From: Chrysophaeum taylorii
Lineage: Eukaryota > Sar > Pelagophyceae > Pelagomonadales > Pelagomonadaceae
DNA length: 64,000 nt
Assembly (NCBI GenBank): GCA_029834535.1
Contig: JAQMWT010000060.1
Location: 62,001 to 126,000 of the forward strand
Direction of reading: 5' to 3'
Below are positions 34,083-62,352 of this stretch, one piece after another. The notes under the pieces were generated by a model. It had not been told where the DNA came from. It saw nothing but the letters and a program-made list of their open reading frames with translations, and did not search any database. Numbering within the stretch: the stretch's first letter is position 1; every line of letters starts with the position of its first letter. Made by a program: the position numbers and the translations under genes.

Positions 34083-34117
34083 CCCCCCGCTCTTAGCAGT
34101 CGACATTTATATAACCC
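34083..34117 (+). repeat. Dispersed element end, copy 2, interrupted by the LTR retrotransposon
   Basis: ccccccgctcttagcagtcg then acatttata, followed directly by the left LTR. Compare copies at 27089 and 55419. Confidence 0.65.
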
Positions 34118-34443
34118 TGTGGCAGTAACGCCCATTCCCCCCCACTTGCCTGCCTGCCTGCCACCTGACTTACCATGATTGTTGCCCTGGTACTGACCTT
34201 GCAATTATGGGGGAGGGTGTCATCTTGACACCCTCGCGTGCGCTTCCACTGAACTCAATGTACCGGGCATTTGTATCGCTTTCTTGCTGTCTTCTTGCTA
34301 TTACCCTCATTTTGATTGTCCGATTTTCAGTGTTACGCTGAGATCGGGCGTGTGGTGGTTTCACCCGCGGTTCGGGTTGGGAGAAAGGGTTGTTGAGGCC
34401 TCTGGCCTGGCCAAGAGGGGCGGGTGTCTAAGAAACCACTACA
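34118..34443 (+). repeat. Left LTR (about 326 bp)
   Basis: Starts tgtggcagtaacgcccattc and ends accactaca. It contains an inverted pair ggtgtcatcttgacacc (34217-34233). It differs from the right LTR by several substitutions and small indels, so insertion is not very recent. Confidence 0.9.
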
Positions 34444-34444
34444 A

Positions 34445-34460
34445 TGGTCTCAGAAACGGG
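34445..34460 (+). other. Primer-binding site of the LTR element
   Basis: tggtctcagaaacggg starts one base after the left LTR. It begins TGG, complementary to the tRNA CCA end, and resembles the initiator-Met PBS (TGGTATCAGAGC). Confidence 0.5.
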
Positions 34461-34828
34461 AATCGATAGTCCAACAATCGATAGTCCAACTCCTTTCGGC
34501 GGCGAGTCGGTTCGTAACGGTTGAGTGAGCGCGAAGCCGACGCATTTGTGGGTGGAGATCCAGGGAATCACGGGTACCGCCGCTGGGTTCATTTTGCGTG
34601 ATTCGGATCGAACGGGGAGCGGAGTCACTACGACTCATTTTGGCAAACATCGTAAGACCTGAGTAGACAGCGCAACGTCAGCCCCGACCTAGCTCGCGCG
34701 AGGCAGACCACCTCGCTGACGGCGAGCGACAGCACCGGGAAGACCGTCCATAGTCTTCACGCGCAAGGCAAATACTTCCGTAAGTCCAGCGCACCGGTAC
34801 CAGCGCGCAGTCAGACGGCTGCCGGCAA

Positions 34829-36028
34829 GTGTCGTCTGACGAAAAAGAACACAAAAAGCGAGTTGTGAGCGTTCGGATTAATCCTATTATCCGGGCAAAG
34901 CGCGCGGTCATGGCAGAGAGGCCAATGACAACAGAACGACCGCAGTGGTTTCGGGACGCACAGGAGCGTCTGCAACGATTCAGTGCAGGGACTCCATTTG
35001 CATCTATATTGGAAGAACACCGTTCAGCACGCCCTTTCAGCGGCCGGAAGCCGAGGAAAGCGGCATTAGAAGAGAGGCAAGATCGTCTGATAGCCTCGAC
35101 AGCCCCCCAAGCGTGGTCATCCTTCCGGATCCACGCGCCGGCGAAGGGGGAGCTACGGTTGCGCCAGACGCAACTTCCAAGACCCCCGGGTGAGCCGACG
35201 TTCCCGTACGCACGACCCTACGAACGTGCGATGAATACTACGGAGCCATCTCGAGCGGAACCCGGACCGTTTACGGCGATGCGTGGACCAGAGGAGAGTG
35301 CACCTCCTAGGTCACCATCCGCGAATATGAGAGCGACAGATTTTCGCGTGGATACCGACCCCGAGATTCTGCAGACCATCAACGAGCGATTCGAGATGTG
35401 CCAGTCGCAGATCGAGCAAGTCCTACGTGAAATTGAGCGCACCCGCCGCGACGCGCAATAACAACGCTCAGAAGTGGAGCGGCAGCGGATCGACAACGAT
35501 CGACTTCGACGAATGGTGGAGGAATCCACGCGGGCGCATGCTCGAGAGGCACGGCCAGCCTCTCCGGATGCTACGCGTGTTACGCCCGAAGAAGATGACG
35601 CTGTATCGGCACTGACCGATGATCAGCCACCGCGAAGTCGACCGGGGCCTACTCCGCAGCATCATACTGACCCCGGTTCAGCTCGTCCTCGTGACGAAGA
35701 AGAAGTACTTCAGATCAAGAAGGGAGCAGCTGATATGACTCGTATTACGCTTTCGCCTCTCACCGGGCAAATCACCAAAACCCAGGATGAGGTTAACGCG
35801 TGGTTTATGCAGTTGCAGCGTAAGGTCGAAGGCGAGATCATGCCGCATGAAGGATGTGTCAACATGCAGCTAGAAGCCACTGACGACGTTTGTCATGCGA
35901 CTCTCACGGCTGCTGTTGACGAGAATGAAGTCGAGGAGGATGTTTTGAGTGACAGACCTCCTCCTGAGCCACCTCCAGATGAAGAAATGAAAAAAAAAAA
36001 TACCAGAAATGGAGATGAAGGCGACTGA
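34829..36028 (+). pseudogene. Gag-like ORF of the LTR element with an in-frame stop
   Basis: One reading frame of about 400 codons, interrupted by TAA at 35459-35461. The first part (210 residues) is basic and Pro-rich, ending in a coiled coil (INERFEMCQSQIEQVLREIE). The second part continues the coiled coil (RQRIDNDRLRRMVEEST), then an acidic Pro-rich region with MQLQRKVEGEIMPHEG-like text. No CCHC zinc knuckle was seen. It ends with tandem TGA TAA at 36026-36031. A stop read-through or a single mutation are both possible; position and coiled-coil content suggest gag, but there is no family match. Confidence 0.55.
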
Positions 36029-36925
36029 TAAGGACCTGCTATCCAAGCATGCCTCCGTGGTTTGGGTACTCATCACCTACACCTTTGTCGTCGTCTACTT
36101 TGCTGGCGCTGGAGGATCAACGTTGGGTATCCGGCGATGCAATGAGCTATATGGCAGTTCATTTCGCATTGTCTTGGCTTTGGATGCTTGTCCGCAAGCC
36201 CGAGCCACCTTTGAGCTCAATTTTCCGGAGATTCCCTATGTTTTGCATGAGTTGGGGAATTGGTCTTGTCGTATTTACATTCAGATTTTTGGAAGCATTC
36301 TTATTTTCACGCAAGTCCGCCGTGTATCTATGGATCGACCGCCAATTTGCACTACAGGGACGCACGCAAGGGCGCTACTATTACTTCTTGGGTCCTGCGT
36401 CATTTCCGCAACGCACTTTATGTAATTGGACGATGGACGCTCGAGCAGGAACCATCAGTAATCCCTTTCGTGCATCACCAGTTTTATGTGCCGCGCATTG
36501 TCGAACTTTATAGTATCACACCAGAATTACTGTGCTCGCGCACGCGCCTACTTGCTTGCAATGTTCGCCTGGAACCGCCGTTATTATCGCGTGTACCACC
36601 GAATTTACCGGACCGTTTTGGGCCAGCGTTAGGATTTACAGGTGGTCACCCGCTCATTATAGTGAACAGTTTCTCATCTACGCGCCCGGCTACCGGCCCT
36701 GCCTTCACAGTGACGTGCAACAAACTGCAGATGGGACCTCATTTCTCGAACACCCGTCCACTCACGTTGCAGATGCACCAGGAAATTATGACCGTTCCTG
36801 CTACGTGGCAATGGGGTGAGGAAGTTTCAGAGACAGCAGCTATGAAGATGCTTGGCAGTATGGTGCCACCCGCGACTATGACGCGGATCGCGCTAGCAGT
36901 GCACAATTCGTTTGACCCTTCACTT
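36009..36925 (+). pseudogene. C5 cytosine DNA methyltransferase domain within the LTR element (frameshifted)
   Basis: The N-terminal part is read in one frame (36009-about 36250) and the rest in another (from about 36250, the same frame as RT). Motif I is FAGAGGSTLG at 36099, followed by VLALDACPQARATF (motif II area). Motif IV is HASPPC (36308-36325) with the catalytic Cys present, followed by ANLHYRDARKG. Motif VI is WTLEQ (36434-36448), in place of ENV. A motif VIII-like SRTRLLACN follows. Motif IX is RPLTLQMHQEIMTVP (36755), and motif X is GSMVPPATMTRIA (36854). The gap between VIII and IX is short, so the target-recognition region is small. One frameshift disrupts this copy. The domain is fused upstream of the RT in the same frame. 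Confidence 0.85.
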
Positions 36926-38340
36926 CGAAATTTGGGTAAGTTGCGGAATATTGCGACGACTACGATAGCCCAACCCGATCACCATAGTCTACGGTTTTCA
37001 CCTTTCGCTGTCGAGTCGCGCATTCCAACGCTCGACCCTGCCACTCGAAGTGTGTCATGGATCTCGCCCGATGACGTCTACTCTCCTGCGAGTCCTGCAC
37101 CATCAGCTGCTGCCACCACCACCCCGCCACCGCCTTCGGTTACATCGCCTGGGACGGCGCAATCTTTTGCAGGGGGCACCGTCGCCACTGCTGTTATGCA
37201 GAGCAACCAAGCCGACAACCAGCCCTCCGCAATTGCTGAAGAAGAAGGCACCGCGAAAGAGCGACCTGCGTATTTCAATAAGTACGACGTTCCGTGGGCG
37301 GACGCGCCTCACGACGAACATGGTCAACCTTTACCGGTGATGCCTCCTCATTTAGCGGGTCAGCAGAGCATGCAGGTCATCTCTCCGACCGTCGTGCAGG
37401 TCGAAGGGGTGATGACTGAATTGGGTATTACAGAGCATCCTGCTTTAGATGACGACGAGAAGCTGATGATGAAGCATCTAATCTTGTATTCATGGGCATT
37501 TTTCGATGATGTGATGAGACCTGTTGATTCACCTGAAGTGACGCTCCGGTTCAAAGAAGAGAACCCGACTCCCGTCAAACTCTCGCCATGTCGGTTGTCG
37601 AAAGAAAAGATTGAATGCTTGCGGATGCAGATTGAAGAATGGACCCGAGACGGAATAATTCGTCCTGCGAATTCTCCATGGGGCTTCCCTATTTTGATGT
37701 TGCCTAAGAAAGGTGCTGAGCCTGGCACTTCCAATGCTTACAGGGCAGCTGTCGACCTACGGCGCCTCTACACGTTGCTCAAGGATGATAGCTGGCCGAG
37801 TGTGAGCACGGCTGACGCGTTGATGTTTCTCATCGACAAGCTCTGTCGTTCCAGTTTGGATATTCGTTGGGGCTATCACAATTTACGATTGTCGCTAGAT
37901 GCACAAGATGTGGTCACCTTTACTAGTCCTCTGGGAGCGTACAGCTACATGCGTCTACCTTTGGGAGTCAAACCAGCCGGAAGTTTATTCTGTAGGCAGT
38001 TGAACACTGACTTGTCGAAACGGCTATATCGTGATCTTGTGGCATATATCGACGATATTCTCGCCGGTCACACAGATACAAAGAATTACTTGCAGTGCCT
38101 TCTGCAAGTTATTCCCCATCTCGCCTTGAAAGGGTATAGCGCCAAGATCAAGAAGATTCATTTTATGCAAGAAGTCATTGAGTTTTTGGGTCATTTATCC
38201 ACCCCGAACGGACTTCTTCCATCACCAAGGTCTTTAGAAGCCATCAGACACATGCCAATTCCTGGCACTTTGTCGGATGCTGACCCTAAGAAGCAAGTGC
38301 GATCTTTCCTTGGAATGGGGAGTTTTTGCCGGCGTAAGGA
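36926..38340 (+). pseudogene. Pol: linker and reverse transcriptase of the LTR element
   Basis: Continues the methyltransferase frame. After a low-complexity Thr/Pro/Ala linker (about 37080-37200), the RT begins near 37440. Features: LSPCRLSKEKIECLRMQIEE, DGIIRPANSPWGFPILMLPK, AAVDLRRLYTLL, SSLDIRWGYHNLRLS, FTSPLGAYSYMRLPLGVKPA and the catalytic YIDD at 38045-38056. EFLGHLSTPNGLLPSP and QVRSFLGMGSF end the domain, all typical of Ty3/gypsy. A frameshift at about 38320 separates it from RNase H. No protease motif was seen in the linker. Confidence 0.9.
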
Positions 38341-39047
38341 ATTTTGCGAAAGTTGCAGAGCCATTAAGACAACTGACGCTGGCGGACGTGAAATTCAAGT
38401 GGACGAAAGAGTGTCAGGAAGCTTGGGATGCCATCATCGAGGCTATTGTCACTTCGACGGGTGTCTACCATCCTGATTACTCGTTGCCTTTTTACATTCG
38501 AACTGATGCTTCCGCGCATGGGTTGGGTGCTTACCTATTTCAAAAGGTACCAGTCGTTGACGACGATGGAAGAGAAAGAATTGAAGAGAGAGTTATTGAG
38601 TACTGGAGTCGAACCGTGCCTAAGTCGATGAGGAAGTATGATCCTCGGCGCTTGGAACTCCTCGCAGTACTCTCCGCTCTTGAAAATTTCCGATTTTATA
38701 TCGAAGGTCATCAGACGAAATTAGAGACAGATCATCGTAATTTAAAGCTTCTTCGGGATTCGAATCATACGTCCGGACAGTTAGCACGATGGGCTATGCG
38801 GCTTGCTGCGTTCGATCGGGAGCTCGGATACTAGCCTGGAAATTCCCCTGGCATGCGCATCCCGGATTGTCTGTCGCGCAACACTATCGGCAAATTGATC
38901 GAGAAAGACGAAGACGGGGAACCGATCAACGAAGCTTTTTTGATTTTCCAAGAAATCCCCACCGATGTACCTGGCACAGCTTGTTTCACCTTCTCTTCGG
39001 TGACGATGCCCATACCGACGGACAGCAGACCCACCGCAGCTATGTAA
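38320..39047 (+). pseudogene. RNase H domain of the LTR element, with in-frame TAG
   Basis: NFAKVAEPLRQLT opens the connection; the RNase H domain has YIRTDASAHGLGAYLFQ (first catalytic Asp), RKYDPRRLELLAVLSALENF (Glu) and ETDHRNLKLL (Asp). A TAG at 38832-38834 interrupts the frame, which continues as PGNSPGMRIPDCLSRN, the normal end of the gypsy RNase H region. Confidence 0.88.
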
Positions 39048-39291
39048 GCAGTTAGTACGCGACAGAACGTACAACCGCCTCAATTCTCGTACGAGTCTGA
39101 GCCAGTTGACTCCGTCGAACGTCTCCCTTTTGCGGATCAAGCGGAGGATGAGATCACGATGAGATCACTCTCGATGAGATAGCGAAAGAACAAGCTGAGG
39201 ATGACACATGCAAGCGCATCAGACGAAATCTCGACTCTGAACAGAAAGATCAAGACGAGCAGTCATCCTACCATATGAGGTTGATGACAAC

Positions 39292-40602
39292 GTGTTGTAT
39301 AAGGTCGATGATTCAGATTCTCAACGTCTTATTGTGGTCCCTCAGTCTATGCGAAAGCGTGTGATCGCCATGCATCACCGAGGATTGTTCGGAGGCCATG
39401 TAGGACGAGACTCCACACCGAATCAAATCTTAGAACGGTACTGGTGGCCAAACGTTTCATCGTCATTTAATGAGTTCGTCAATGCCTGCACTATTTGCCA
39501 GAAGATTCAATCCACCATGCCTAGGCGTCATGGCTTGCTCTGTCAACCGAATCGCGTCGGAGATTGCTATGTTCTAGGTACGGATATGATTGGACCTCTG
39601 AGAGGCGCTGACCTGTACACGTACATACTCGCAATGTACGATGCAGCGTCGCATTTCTTGAAATTAGCTCTGATCAACACAAAACATGACTATTCAATTT
39701 TGAACGCGTTTGTGGACAAGATTTTACTTGAGGGATGTCTCCCACGGTGCATAGTCACGGATAATGGAAATGAGTTCGCGAACAGGTTATTTCGCACGTT
39801 TGTTCGTCAATTCAACGTACGTTATCGTACTACCCTTCCGTATCACCCTCAGAGTAATCATACTGAGCGTGTCAACCGATTCATCAAAGCCTTCTTGCGA
39901 GCTGCGATCGATGAACAGCGTCAGCCAGATTGGTCGAATTTCCTCCCATATGTGGCATTCATGTACAATAGGATGTACATTCCGGGAACGAAGATTTCAC
40001 CTTTCATGATGCGTACTGGCAAGCAACCCCTGTTACCACCCGATTACAATCTTTTGAGTGAACAGCGTGATCTACCGCAATCACGTCATCAGATTTTGGT
40101 GGACTTTAAGAACAAGTTTGAATTTTATAGTCGACTCGTTACACGAGCTCACCAGAAAGCACAGGAGAGTCAAAAACTCAACTATGATGCCCACCAAATT
40201 GACATCCAGTTTTCCCCAGGTGATTATGTTCTGCGTTTCGTGCCTAAGACGCGCCACAAGCTACGGCCCATTTGGCGCGGACCTTACATAGTTACCAGAA
40301 AGATCTCTCCCGTCGTTTACGAAATTCAGGACGTCAACGACGATGATGCTGAATCGGTTGTAGTATCTGTACAACAGATTGTGCCTTTGAAAGTGCCAAC
40401 CATCGACACTTCTTCAGCCTCTCTGCATTTACCTTCAGACCGCGACCGTTTCAAACATGGTAAGTTCGTGATTTTCAGGGTTAAAGGACGATCCAACGCG
40501 TGGAAGAAGCGTATCTACGTTGCCGAAGTCTACGAAGAATATGATCACGACAATGATACAGTTGCGCTTCACTACTATACCGATTTGGGACCCGCGCGAT
40601 GA
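39292..40602 (+). pseudogene. Integrase of the LTR element
   Basis: 436 codons open. The HHCC zinc-binding region is HHRGLFGGHVGRD with YWWPNVSSSFNEFVNAC and TICQK. The core has D in LGTDMIGPLRG, D in VTDNGNEF and E in HTERVNRF (D-D-35-E layout). The GPY/F-type segment is LRPIWRGPYIVTRKI. The start is an arbitrary Met: upstream DNA (39150-39290) continues the protein in other frames. The final part after the GPY module has VKGRSNAWKKRIYVAEVYEE, an uncharacterised tail. The frame may continue after a shift into 40608-40855 (WDPRDDPRVFDPTKPL onward). Confidence 0.9.
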
Positions 40603-40607
40603 TCCTC

Positions 40608-40855
40608 GTGTTTTTGATCCTACTAAGCCTCTGGCTGAGCGACGTTTAAGACCAGAATACAAGGACCCTGACGGAGGTAGCTTCACACGCCTACGACCAA
40701 ACATGGAGGGCTGTGAACCCTGTGTGACTGATTTTCGCCCGGATGAAATCGATGTCCTCGTCAGTAACTTCGGCCTCCACAGCAACAAAGTTCCTGCTGA
40801 TGTAGCTGACCGAGCTTATCGTACCATTCGTGAGCGTGACCTTCGTCACCCTTGA
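40608..40855 (+). other. Out-of-frame C-terminal extension of the LTR element polyprotein
   Basis: Open frame ending TGA-free at 40855, encoding a hydrophilic stretch (PLAERRLRPEYKDPDGGSF). It follows the integrase stop in another frame and lies before the right LTR. It may be the true C-terminus after a frameshift; no domain is recognised. Confidence 0.4.
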
Positions 40856-40889
40856 AGTCGAGGACGACTTCATCTCAAGTAGGGGCTCC

Positions 40890-41203
40890 TGTGGCAGTAA
40901 CGCCCATTCCCCCCACTTGCCTGCCTGCCACCTGACTTACCCTGATTGTTGCTCTGGTACTGACCTTGCAATTATGGGGGGGTGTCATCTTGACACCCTC
41001 ACCTGCGCTTCCACTGAACCCAATGTACCAGGCATTTGTATTGCTTTCTTGCTGTCTTCTTGCTATACCCTCATTTGATTGATCCGATTTGTTGGCGTGA
41101 GTACGCTGAGATCGCGTGGGTGTTTCCACCCGCGGTTCGGGTTGGGGGTTGTTGAGGCCCCTGGTCCGGCCAAGAGGGGCGGGTGTATGAGAAAACCAAT
41201 ACA
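40890..41203 (+). repeat. Right LTR (about 314 bp)
   Basis: Direct repeat of 34118-34443, lacking one TGCC unit near the start and with other small indels. It ends accaatacа-like (accaatac then a) and is followed by aaccg. A weak polypurine tract (aagtagggg) precedes it. Confidence 0.9.
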
Positions 41204-41847
41204 AACCGTGACAGTGCAGCTTGAGGTTCGCCCTGGCACGACTTGGCCTGGCGGGACGGTGAGCGACCAATTATTTCGGTGCGACCGCGCCCAGACGAAC
41301 GGTGACCGCCCCCACCAGAGCATCGCGGCGTGCCCACAACGCACCAAACCTCAGCGCCTCGCGCCACCCGCGGCAGTGAAACGATCCGTAACCGCTGACA
41401 CCGCGTCTTGGCAGTAGGCGACATAACCCCCGCCATGCGCCGCCCCCTCCTCTGCGGCAGTGGCGTAGTAAAGCGATCGACCTCGATGAGCGAGTAAACC
41501 GTGAATTTGGTCCAGAACTGGGGCGTGATCAGATCAGCGAGACCGCGAGGCGCAGCAGACATCGGGCTCTTGCCACACCGGTGCGCCGCGTGACGATGCG
41601 GTCGATAAGGGGCGGGTGGGATGTCGGCCAGTGGCGGGAGCACGGCCGGTTTTTAAGGTACAAGACGGCGCGCGCGGCGAAGGGTACCGCCCGCCGAGCC
41701 GTGCGATCGCCCACGGCCGGTTATTCACGGCGAAGCAGCAAGCAGGGGCGGGCACCTCTGGGACCGACCTCACGAGCCGGGGGTATTTCTTTCGTTCACG
41801 AGATGTTATCGGGCGCCTTCGGTCCAGAGTTATTATCAAGCCAGTGA
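41204..41847. other. Intergenic, GC-rich, no gene called
   Basis: The first 30 bases (aaccgtgacagtgcagcttg) resemble 33900-33930 left of the LTR element (gaaaccgtgacagtgcacgc). Open frames on both strands are shadows without recognisable domains. It should contain the 3' end of the AIM24-like gene. Confidence 0.45.
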
Positions 41848-42774
41848 CTATGGGGCTTCGCGGTACGTCATGTAGTGAGCGTCGGGGGGAGCGCTGGCGC
41901 CAGAGTTGGCGGCGTAGGTCATGTAGGAGTCGTCGGGAGCAAGGGGGCTACCAGAGGCAGCGCTGCCGCCACCGCCCCTGCGCTGGTTGTTGGCAGCGGC
42001 GACCGAGAGTGCGGCCTTGAACTTTTCTTTGGACATGGACTGAAGGAAGATGTGTCCAGGGCCCGTAAGCGTGGTGTTGAAGAGGCCCTCGCCCGCGCAG
42101 CAGCAGGTGCAGCAGCCGCCGGTGCGGCGGATCCCGAGTTTGACCGAATCTTGCCAGGCGACGAGGCTGTGGGTGTCGACGACGAGGACCTCGCCGTCGT
42201 CGAGGCGTTTGGTAAGGATAGTGCCCATCGCCGAGAGGAAGGCGGTGCTGGACGAGGAACCGACGATAACCTGGTGCAGCAAGCCCTGGCCGGCAAAGCA
42301 GCAGGTGCAGGGATTGCAATCGAAGTGAAATGTGAGACGAGCGTCACCGAGGGAGGCGAAGAAGGCTCCGGTCTTGGTGCGGATCTTTCCGTCGACGTCA
42401 CCGAGATGCACGGGAATGACTTTGCCGGGGACGTCGGACGCGAGAGCGACGTAAGCGTCGGGCGACGTCGCTTTATACGTCGCCATAATGCATCTCTCCC
42501 CGGACATGCATCTTCCGAAGCAGTCCTTGCAGTCGACGCTGCTGTGGATCCCCGGATGCATGAAGTTGAGCGACCCTGGCGCGGTGGTCACCTGCGCGTC
42601 TCGTTGATTCATCACAGCACACAGCCCTACCTCCTCGGCAAGGTCGAGCTTGATCGACAGCACCTGCATGTCGTCGCCCAGGATCTCGTACTTTGGGGAC
42701 GCGACGACGGCCACGAACTTCTCGAAACCCCCGACGATCCCCACCACCTCTGCCTCCGGCGGGGGTGCTTCCAT
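41848..42774 (-). CDS. AIM24-family protein, copy 1
   Basis: 308 residues starting MEAPPPEAEVVG. The AIM24 (DUF124) family has a double beta-helix fold; fungal AIM24 supports mitochondrial inner-membrane organisation, while many algal and bacterial members are uncharacterised. Seen here: QVLSIKLDLAEEVGLCAVMN at the start, ALASDVPGKVIPVHLGDVDG, KTGAFFASLGDA, GEVLVVDTHSLVAWQDSVKL and GEGLFNTTLTGPGHIFLQSM, all family hallmarks. Cys clusters (CNPCTCCFAGQG, CCTCCCAGEG) are unusual and might bind metal or be palmitoylated. The tail repeats a DxxYMTY motif. Divergent from copy 2, with 71 bp between starts. Confidence 0.88.
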   Translation of the reverse strand: MEAPPPEAEVVGIVGGFEKFVAVVASPKYEILGDDMQVLSIKLDLAEEVGLCAVMNQRDAQVTTAPGSLNFMHPGIHSSVDCKDCFGRCMSGERCIMATYKATSPDAYVALASDVPGKVIPVHLGDVDGKIRTKTGAFFASLGDARLTFHFDCNPCTCCFAGQGLLHQVIVGSSSSTAFLSAMGTILTKRLDDGEVLVVDTHSLVAWQDSVKLGIRRTGGCCTCCCAGEGLFNTTLTGPGHIFLQSMSKEKFKAALSVAAANNQRRGGGGSAASGSPLAPDDSYMTYAANSGASAPPDAHYMTYREAP

Positions 42775-61162: not shown

Positions 61163-62352
61163 GATTCCTCGTGGTGGTGCTGGTAGTGCCGGCGCCACCA
61201 TCCCCTCCTCCTCGCCTCTTCGGGGCGCGTCGCGACGCGGATATCCTCTCTTGGCGGCGCCGCCGGCGGCCGCGGGACGAGGTGCCAGTCCTCTTCCTTT
61301 TCGACGATGGTCAGGTCGTGGACAAAGGCGAGCACTGGAACTTTTTTCGTTTTCTTCTCGAGGAAGACGACCTCTGCGACCAGGCCGCGCAGCCGGAGAC
61401 CAGGGGCGAGGAAGTGGCCCGGCCCAAAGGTGCTCCCCGCGCCCGCGCGGATGCGCGTCGCCGCGTTGGCCGCGCACCTCGCCACGGCGCGGTGCAGGGC
61501 GGGGTCCCGGACGAGCTGGCTCGAGGGTTCGGTCGCGTCGTCGCGCCGCCGGAGCGCGCCCGGCCAGGTCATCATTTCGCGGGTCTGGTTGGGCGACGGA
61601 AGCCCCCCCGAGACGTCGAAACCCTCGACGACGTACCGATGAAGAAAGACGCCGCTCGCCGTGCCGCAGCCGCTCGCCGCGAACGGCTGGAGCGCGACCA
61701 GCTGCGACCACGACGTCAGACCGGGGCCGGCGGTCGCGGGGACGCGCTCCTCGAGGTCGCGGAGCTCGCGCCACGTCAGGAGCGTCGACACCACGCGGGG
61801 TCGCGAAGCGCGCCATCGCAGCACGGCGACCGGATCTTCGGGATGCCCGCGCCGGTGCCGTTTCGCGAGAATGCCCACCACGATCTCGGGCCAGTTCAGC
61901 CGCTTCCGGTGCTTGCGGCGGAGGCGCCCGCGCCGGTCGCAGAATACCCAGCACACGGGCGCGCCCTCGGCGAACAGAATCGTGTCGGGTACGAGCACCT
62001 TTGCCTTTTTCTTCGCCTGAGCCCTGTCGCTCGCGAGCGCTATGAACGCCCATACTTCGGGCACAGAGGCCCCGACAACCACGCCCTCGCCCTCGACGTC
62101 CGACCCGCTCACCGACGAGGACGCCACTTCAAACGCTTCGCTCGACGACGACGACGACGACGACGACGCTACCGCCGCCTCTTCCGGCGCCTCGCGGACC
62201 ACGATTTCGGCCACCTCCGACGCCGCCGCCGCCGACGACGATGCGGACGACGACGACGACGACGACGACGATAAGTCCTCCTCGTCCTCCTCTGGGATCG
62301 ACGGTTGGACCTCCAGCGGCTTCTGCTTCCGCTCAGAAGAGGAAGACCACAT
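61081..62352 (-). CDS. Unknown protein, low-complexity N-terminus, His-rich C-terminus
   Basis: I chose ATG 62352 (MWSSSSERKQ), giving about 423 residues; the frame is open up to 62544, but this would overlap RNase-kappa copy 2 and the TGACGTCA sites. The N-terminus is acidic and Ser-rich (GAC/TCG repeats). A globular-looking region from about residue 95 begins PEVWAFIALASDRAQAKKKA and includes ILFAEGAPVCWVFCDRRGRL, LNWPEIVVGILAKRHRRGHP and VLRWRASRPRVVSTLLTWRE. This could be a PHD/bromo-associated (BAH-like) type fold, but I cannot name it. The His run near the C-terminus comes from an ATG/CAT repeat. Function unknown. Confidence 0.6.

Follow-up and report, generated by a model that had tools for sequence, protein, structure and literature searches.

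A cytosine methyltransferase in the Pol polyprotein of a Ty3/gypsy retrotransposon family of Chrysophaeum taylorii, and a distinct one in a Ty1/copia family

Is a cytosine methyltransferase a regular part of a retrotransposon in Chrysophaeum taylorii, and if so, what would the element do with it? The question is raised by a 64,000-nucleotide stretch of eukaryotic DNA, positions 62001 to 126000 of contig C60 (JAQMWT010000060.1), in a 70.8-Mb assembly of 697 contigs. We call this whole stretch the window; positions are those of the window unless another locus is named, and C-numbers and L-numbers denote contigs and loci of the same genome. A Ty3/gypsy retrotransposon with long terminal repeats (LTRs) occupies 34118-41203 and encodes a C5 cytosine methyltransferase (DCM) upstream of its reverse transcriptase (RT). 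Retrotransposons that carry such enzymes are already known as a kind. Our comparisons indicate that this genome holds a real, multi-copy and constrained family of DCM-bearing gypsy elements, together with a parallel family of DCM-bearing copia elements.

Examination of the window copy revealed all the DCM motifs, distributed over two reading frames of the forward strand. The first part of the enzyme (36024-36278, frame 0) contains motif I, FAGAGG, at 36099-36116 and the residues following it. The second part (36257-36964, frame 2) is open into the RT and contains motif IV, SPPC with the catalytic Cys, at 36314-36325, motif VI, LEQ, at 36440-36448, motif VIII, SRTR, at 36536-36547, motif IX, RPLT, at 36755-36766, and motif X, GSMVPP, at 36854-36871. 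We take these DCM columns to correspond to motifs I, IV, VI, VIII and X as they are usually named. An earlier sequence-only reading of this stretch had listed the same motifs apart from SRTR, and every one that it listed was located in the region given. It had also placed the DCM in the frame of the RT, which holds for motifs IV-X, since these share frame 2 with the RT motifs LPLGVK and YIDD, and does not hold for motif I. The two parts match residues 1-85 (86% identity) and 86-321 (94% identity) of the DCM of a related locus, L054, so that the frame switches within approximately 36257-36278. The L054 DCM matched the window with an E value of 1.9e-173, and none of 200 letter-shuffled versions of the element gave a match at E <= 1e-3. 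The two halves scored 16.7 and 18.3 bits on the DNA methylase model PF00145, both below the curated cut-off of 22; the search with this model, which the sequence-only reading had proposed, fails for the window copy and succeeds for its undamaged relatives.

The window copy has also lost a large internal segment. Upstream of the DCM, the N-terminal remnant of a frame in the position of Gag (34829-35823, forward strand) consists of two open reading frames (ORFs; 34829-35461 and 35474-36028), whose pieces match residues 36-107 (32% identity) and 161-280 (38%) of the polyprotein of L061, a relative with a long open frame. At the junction 35823/35824 the equivalent of L061 residues ~281-1131 is absent, a loss covering the protease-like region and much of what lies at the Gag position; L061 residues 1031-1163 are also matched, more weakly (30%) and with overlap. 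By these alignments, the window copy is a frameshifted, decayed deletion derivative that lacks the protease-like region. Using window positions 35000-37300 as the query, we detected at least 49 pieces in 40 scored genomic candidates, and 18 of the 49, the window's own included, span the deletion junction. That at least 18 loci carry the same junction indicates that a deletion derivative keeping DCM, RT, RNase H and integrase has itself multiplied.

Long open frames elsewhere in the genome revealed the arrangement of the full element: Gag, protease, DCM, RT, RNase H and integrase. Gag is named here by position, and the protease-like region by eye, from a stretch with DGMAD and LLLGAREL in the relatives; Pfam Gag and protease models gave no match in the window copy or in the relatives' frames. 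The sequence-only reading had put the DCM between gag and RT; it does lie upstream of the RT, and in full relatives its place is more exactly between the protease-like region and the RT. L061 has a 2070-aa frame that runs from the Gag position into RNase H, and L062 a 2115-aa frame from upstream of the protease-like region to the end of the integrase. PF00145 was recognized in the long frames of L061 (30.9 bits), L062 (28.2 bits) and L054 (30.2 bits), and the isolated L061 domain scored 38.2 bits. The order RT-RNase H-integrase of Ty3/gypsy elements (PF00078, PF17917/PF17919, PF17921, PF00665) was found in the window copy and its relatives; among the window copy, L062 and L065, the integrase core rve exceeded its cut-off of 32.6 in L065 alone (43.4 bits).

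L065 represents a sister clade. Its single 3067-aa frame (3059 aa analysed) has the same domain order, and its DCM carries FSGAGG, ASPPC, IEQ and VPP; PF00145 gave 26.3 bits for the isolated domain, over the cut-off, and 18.9 bits for the whole frame, under it. With the RT-RNase H region of L062 as the query, at least 96 matches were obtained (95 scored candidates), 27 of them at 65-66% identity, one at 73% and the rest at 83-100%; L065 is the one member of the group of 27 that we examined. Identity to this sister clade is 66% in RT-RNase H and 40% in the DCM. When the L065 DCM was searched against the genome and 128 of 1024 candidates were scored, at least 128 matches were obtained; in 104 the aligned part, which in some cases falls short of the full domain, has no stop. 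All copy counts are lower bounds, and some contig pairs, such as C6/C268 and C10/C297, look like alleles or duplicates. Across nine gypsy copies from three clades, G28, G30, G31, P106-C108, E148, R180, R182, V287 and P288 were invariant, and the sister clade retains the motif I glycines, SPPC, EQ, R-x-R and VP. The canonical ENV of motif VI is not present in the gypsy copies, which have LEQ or IEQ instead. At the sequence level, three gypsy clades of this genome have the DCM as a regular component of Pol that is under selective constraint. The claim of the sequence-only reading that it is carried inside a Ty3/gypsy element is supported, and further genomic copies exist.

We further examined the DCM for signs of selection. 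Among 30 loci cut from the window-query matches, the window locus included, the whole DCM was open in one frame in 12, the window locus not being one of them; L061 and L062, chosen for their long frames and also open in the DCM, bring the open rows to 14. SPPC was retained in 14 of these 14 rows and LEQ in 13. Median ratios of nonsynonymous to synonymous substitution rates (dN/dS) between window-like copies and L061 were 0.069 for the DCM (12 pairs), 0.127 for the protease-like region (11 pairs), 0.030 for the RT (5 pairs) and 0.311 for the DCM-RT linker (15 pairs), and the median against L062 was 0.059 for RNase H (11 pairs); between subfamilies the protease-like region ranged from 0.12 to 0.13, and all such between-subfamily values are rough because dS is near saturation. 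Within the window-like group, the DCM gave 0.20 at a dS of 0.09 (65 pairs). The DCMs of L062 and L054 are 48-58% identical at third codon positions and 74-92% identical in residues. The gypsy DCM looks selectively maintained on these figures. A separate observation was that L062 and L054 are more alike at third positions in L062 Pol residues 866-1015, the DCM-RT linker (identity 0.60-0.82), than elsewhere (~0.5), with a value of 0.76 in residues 1066-1115; a signal in the RNA or DNA, or recombination, is our suggested reading of the raised identity in the linker.

A second LTR superfamily of this genome carries a methyltransferase of its own. L063:1-9584 (C96, approximately 60500-70083) is a Ty1/copia element whose distinct DCM lies between a protease-like region and an integrase-like stretch. 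Its LTR pieces are 96.7% alike over 122 bp, and a Gag-position frame is followed by one 1952-aa frame containing, in order, protease-like LIDGGASF, the DCM (32-35 bits), an integrase-like stretch (residues 1016-1110; rve 17.2 bits, below the cut-off of 32.6) and RVT_2 (residues 1686-1933; 133.2 bits), integrase upstream of RVT_2 being the Ty1/copia order. A genome search with the copia DCM gave at least 119 matches (112 scored of 668 candidates). Out of 29 rows hit, 12 were open, which come from 11 loci because L017 and L063 coincide, and PCQ and ENV were present in all 12; the median pairwise dN/dS was 0.149 (65 pairs with dS > 0.02, some counting L017/L063 twice). In both families the DCM lies 3' of the protease-like region. 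A single origin of the two enzymes was considered and is disfavoured: hhalign found no match between the gypsy and copia DCMs (0.1-0.2% probability), while it aligned each with the stand-alone protein P0001, at 96% probability for gypsy (over motifs I-IV) and 85% for copia. In a 13-row tree, which contained no DNMT3 sequences, the gypsy DCMs with the metagenomic protein P0003 (99/99) and the copia DCMs (100/100) stood apart; its deep nodes are poorly supported, with long branches joining there. Independent capture, in two events, is the reading that these comparisons favour. At L020:3-2571 (C189), a copia-type DCM frame lies downstream of a gypsy integrase frame, an arrangement that may be either a nested insertion or a recombinant.

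Relatives of the gypsy DCM outside this genome were few. The DCM region of the polyprotein found no relative at E <= 0.001 in the protein search; with the DCM alone as the query, P0001 and P0002 appeared at E <= 1, and with the DCM alignment, P0003-P0006 and P0001 at E <= 0.1. P0003, a metagenomic JGI protein of 322 aa on a contig of 2598 bases, matched the alignment with an E value of 1.1e-33. It shares the W-P-TY start, ASP-C and WTLEQ with the gypsy DCMs, among which it groups in the tree, and in it SPSC replaces SPPC and CGIGG replaces AGAGG, with the catalytic Cys retained; it has no Pfam match. By eye, a stretch upstream in P0003 resembles the one that precedes the DCM in gypsy frames. 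The similarity of P0003 suggests that the gypsy DCM family probably occurs in another organism too, and the case for spread beyond the source genome rests on this protein. The top Foldseek row for P0003 was a DNMT2 (E 1.7e-3), amid many other folds, and was not used as evidence. Searches of collections of viral and genome contigs yielded no relative, and records close to the source genome may be excluded from them. Against PDB sequences, the gypsy DCM profile matched 8yf3 alone at E <= 1 (E 0.0036) and no DNMT3 chain, and divergence is high. P0003 apart, the nearest sequence relatives found are stand-alone PF00145 proteins and 8yf3. Motifs I-IV and IX-X of the gypsy DCM align with those of the stand-alone metagenomic enzymes (P0001 and P0004-P0006) and 8yf3, whereas the gypsy enzyme carries six extra residues after motif I, has LEQ in place of ENV, and is much shorter between motifs VI and IX.

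The remaining features of the window element, read on the forward strand, are those of a Ty3/gypsy insertion. The 5' LTR (34118-34443, 326 bp, TG...CA) is directly followed by a candidate primer-binding site at 34445-34458, which starts TGGTCTCAG and is proposed from its position and TGG start, no tRNA having been matched. Downstream of the DCM are the RT core RVT_1 (37835-38194; PF00078, 42.8 bits) with YIDD at 38045-38056, RNase H (38400-38813; RT_RNaseH PF17917, 94.2 bits, and RT_RNaseH_2 PF17919, 87.5 bits), the H2C2 zinc-binding domain of the integrase (39337-39513; PF17921, 61.1 bits) and its core rve (39595-39849; PF00665, 32.3 bits, marginally under the cut-off of 32.6), beyond which PF22938 scored 30.2 bits, over its cut-off of 27. 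A candidate polypurine tract, agtagggg, at 40878-40885, likewise proposed from the sequence, adjoins the 3' LTR (40890-41203, 314 bp). At the LTR ends we read a candidate target-site duplication, aaccc at 34113-34117 and aaccg at 41204-41208, which match in four of five positions. The LTR pair is identical in 293 of 335 columns, with 24 gap columns and 18 mismatches in 311 aligned positions by blastn; we preferred this figure to that of MAFFT (31 mismatches in 309), which misaligned the pair near gaps. A divergence of 18/311 fits an old insertion. Beyond the element, an ORF at 42846-43703 matches PDB 1yox (hypothetical protein PA3696, E 1.6e-25), and its neighbour on the opposite strand, at 41848-42774, is alike by eye.

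What the DCM might do depends on the methylation genes of the host. A genome search with PF00145 gave at least 57 rows (123 scored of 474 candidates), mostly from the copia element: 28 fall within copia copies, a further 21 overlap copia DCM matches, 2 sit next to such matches, and 2 are host genes. The other four were assigned to neither the copia nor the host-gene set (C23:3967-4245, C104:69944-70243, C683:49402-49854 and C683:59821-60168). One host gene, at L066:1068-7001 (C621), is a DNMT5 with PF00145 (62.1 bits) and SNF2 PF00176 (50.0 bits) in one frame (1977 aa searched); it matches PDB 7r76, recorded under the name Rad8, which we take to be the Dnmt5 of Cryptococcus, with an E value of 1.9e-272. 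The other, at L001:1498-2577 (C634), is a DNMT2 (E 3.9e-39 to PDB 1g55). One SRA domain was found, at C594:64137-64520. A search for DNMT1-RFD gave no match, with its control silent too, and is hence uninformative on DNMT1; a six-frame PF00145 search can miss intron-rich genes. The host set as found by sequence comparison is DNMT5, DNMT2 and one SRA, which is no proof of completeness. DNMT5 is described as a maintenance enzyme tied to linker methylation in algae, in the relevant passages of PMC9998398. As to the host itself, 84 light-harvesting (PF00504) pieces in the genome indicate that it is photosynthetic. One of them, compared with PDB, gave LHCI-11 (9vfj) at the top and several fucoxanthin chlorophyll a/c proteins lower among the best 60 of 661 rows, matches that suggest a chlorophyll-c alga, either a haptophyte or a stramenopile; neighbouring light-harvesting pieces on C88, C390, C539, C533 and C518 score equally or nearly so, as in tandem clusters.

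We propose that the gypsy DCM methylates the element's complementary DNA or new insertions de novo and that host DNMT5 maintains the mark, a reading to which we give an even chance. The DCM would be made within the Pol polyprotein, freed by the protease and packed in the particle beside the RT; it would methylate cytosines in new double-stranded cDNA or at the fresh insertion, and DNMT5 with the SRA protein would re-copy the mark at each replication. The element might benefit by arriving pre-marked as resident DNA, by limiting its own damage, or both, and the Ty1/copia family would act in parallel through its different DCM. A precedent exists in the SymbioDIRS-Dnmt3 domains of Symbiodinium, which methylate CG de novo in yeast according to the pertinent section of PMC5890265.

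Several results weigh against de novo methylation of element DNA. KnitGypsy-Dnmt3 and SymbioLINE-Dnmt were inactive in yeast, which the authors, in the same section of PMC5890265, call inconclusive. Motif VI is LEQ or IEQ and not ENV, and the VI-IX span is short compared with stand-alone DCMs. The predicted structure of P0003 had a mean pLDDT (predicted local distance difference test) score of 42, and it matched no fold at E <= 0.001. Picking open copies pushes the dN/dS values downwards. CpG observed/expected was 1.02-1.11 in elements and had a median of 1.30 outside them (range 0.98-1.47, from 53 overlapping 2-kb windows), and TG and CA are raised in element stretches; this mild drop in CpG may be explicable by composition. 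Among 26 gypsy copies, C/T polymorphism was seen at 28 of 77 CpG, 33 of 74 CpT, 13 of 68 CpA and 21 of 75 CpC sites, and G/A polymorphism at 28 of 76 sites after C, 27 of 58 after G, 21 of 79 after T and 14 of 56 after A. Among 22 copia copies, the C/T fraction at CpG (28/49) was below that at CpT (25/40). CpG transitions are not in excess, so there is no clear footprint of decay at methylated CpG. A wider proposal, that two LTR superfamilies convergently captured different DCMs at the corresponding place downstream of the protease, and that these enzymes, acting on new insertions, serve as the source of de novo methylation, maintained by DNMT5, in a host without DNMT3, appears doubtful to us, and we advance it tentatively.

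The missing CpG-decay signal would also be expected if the gypsy DCM acted on RNA in the particle, modifying the element's RNA genome or its tRNA primer with 5-methylcytosine and affecting packaging or reverse transcription. DNMT2, also a PF00145 protein, is a tRNA methyltransferase, RNA methylation was raised for SymbioLINE by de Mendoza et al. 2018 (in the passage on that element in PMC5890265), and the short VI-IX span leaves little space for recognition of a DNA target. On the other hand, the nearest relatives, P0003 apart, are the stand-alone proteins and 8yf3, a 'cytosine-specific methyltransferase', rather than DNMT2, and two distinct DCMs both reside in LTR elements, which make cDNA. 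We consider an RNA target unlikely, although it survives best among the alternatives.

The unusual motifs raise the question of whether the domain is catalytic at all, or a DNA- or RNA-binding or structural module of Pol. Motif VI is the non-canonical LEQ, motif X has GSM for GNS, and isolated gypsy domains reach only 26-38 bits on PF00145. Against a loss of catalysis stand a catalytic Pro-Cys kept in every open row (14/14 gypsy and 12/12 copia), motif I glycines and a motif VI Glu retained across clades that are 40% identical, and a Cys that persists in P0003 despite SPSC and CGIGG; we think this explanation improbable and place it second.

The DCM could instead act chiefly in trans, methylating the host genome as its principal or sole de novo enzyme, with selection for altered host chromatin. 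Element copies are numerous, and the stand-alone PF00145 genes recognized are two, DNMT5 and DNMT2. This count is open to revision, as 4 of the 57 PF00145 rows are unplaced, 123 of 474 candidates were scored, intron-rich genes can be missed and the DNMT1-RFD search was uninformative; moreover, a selfish element would hardly keep selection for an effect in trans. We judge this improbable as well and rank it third. That the DCM is a chance insertion or misread frame in a single element, as the frameshifted window copy below the Pfam cut-off might have suggested, is ruled out for practical purposes by the genomic copies (40 scored candidates in the window clade and 128 matches in the sister clade) and by the constraint on the protein.

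How the proposed cDNA-methylating gypsy family relates to known systems can be seen from the work of de Mendoza et al. 2018 (PMC5890265), which, in the passages on these elements, describes DNMTs under purifying selection in DIRS, LINE and gypsy elements. Among these, KnitGypsy-Dnmt3 (from the charophyte Klebsormidium nitens) resembles the window family in having a Ty3/gypsy Pol with a C5 DNMT, several copies and purifying selection. It differs in its host, in its DNMT3-type enzyme, a type that our PDB sequence search did not detect for the window family, and in a DIRS-like repeat structure, given in a figure legend, where the window family has plain paired TG...CA LTRs. SymbioDIRS-Dnmt3 and SymbioLINE-Dnmt of Symbiodinium are likewise abundant element-borne DNMTs distributed over two or more element classes that each carry a separate enzyme, but the classes there are DIRS and LINE rather than LTR gypsy and LTR copia, and the SymbioDIRS enzymes are of the DNMT3 type, to which the gypsy DCM here gave no match among PDB sequences; the Copia elements of Symbiodinium are without DNMT in the portion of that paper concerned. 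The likeness to methyltransferase retrotransposons of dinoflagellates and charophytes, to which the sequence-only reading had pointed, is supported by these parallels.

That reading's further suggestion of another lineage stands with reduced novelty, because a general sentence in Morozov et al. 2019 (PMC6338049) names stramenopiles, with red and green algae and charophytes, among hosts of DAM- or DCM-encoding gypsy and DIRS elements. The sentence mixes adenine and cytosine enzymes, its source for DCMs in gypsy and DIRS being de Mendoza 2018, and the passages around it describe no stramenopile or haptophyte DCM element. A 2025 paper (PMC12344493) places DNMT3s in 'LTR Copia and DIRS' and cites the 2018 report, in which the streptophyte element is a Gypsy; section 5 of the 2025 paper describes no Copia element, and the enzyme is a DNMT3. 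The Sola DNA transposon of Ectocarpus with a ParB-methyltransferase (PMC12477816) is also a case of a transposon-borne DNA methyltransferase in an alga, but, in the part of that paper bearing on it, is a DNA transposon with a separate gene for a predicted N4mC/N6mA enzyme. In the passages retrieved by a search of the open-licence PMC literature, we found no LTR element with a DCM in a chlorophyll-c alga, no Ty1/copia element with a DCM, and no description of a single genome whose LTR elements of two superfamilies carry different DCMs.

In the comparisons made, the gypsy and copia DCMs gave no match to DNMT3 or to one another. Their parallel presence in two LTR superfamilies suggests that elements with free cDNA have repeatedly gained from writing methylation, and that this is not a one-off. 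If the host truly has DNMT5 only, the origin of new methylation in DNMT5 lineages would become directly testable. Should the proposed role of the gypsy DCM hold true, these elements might mark their own copies and affect their silencing by the host.

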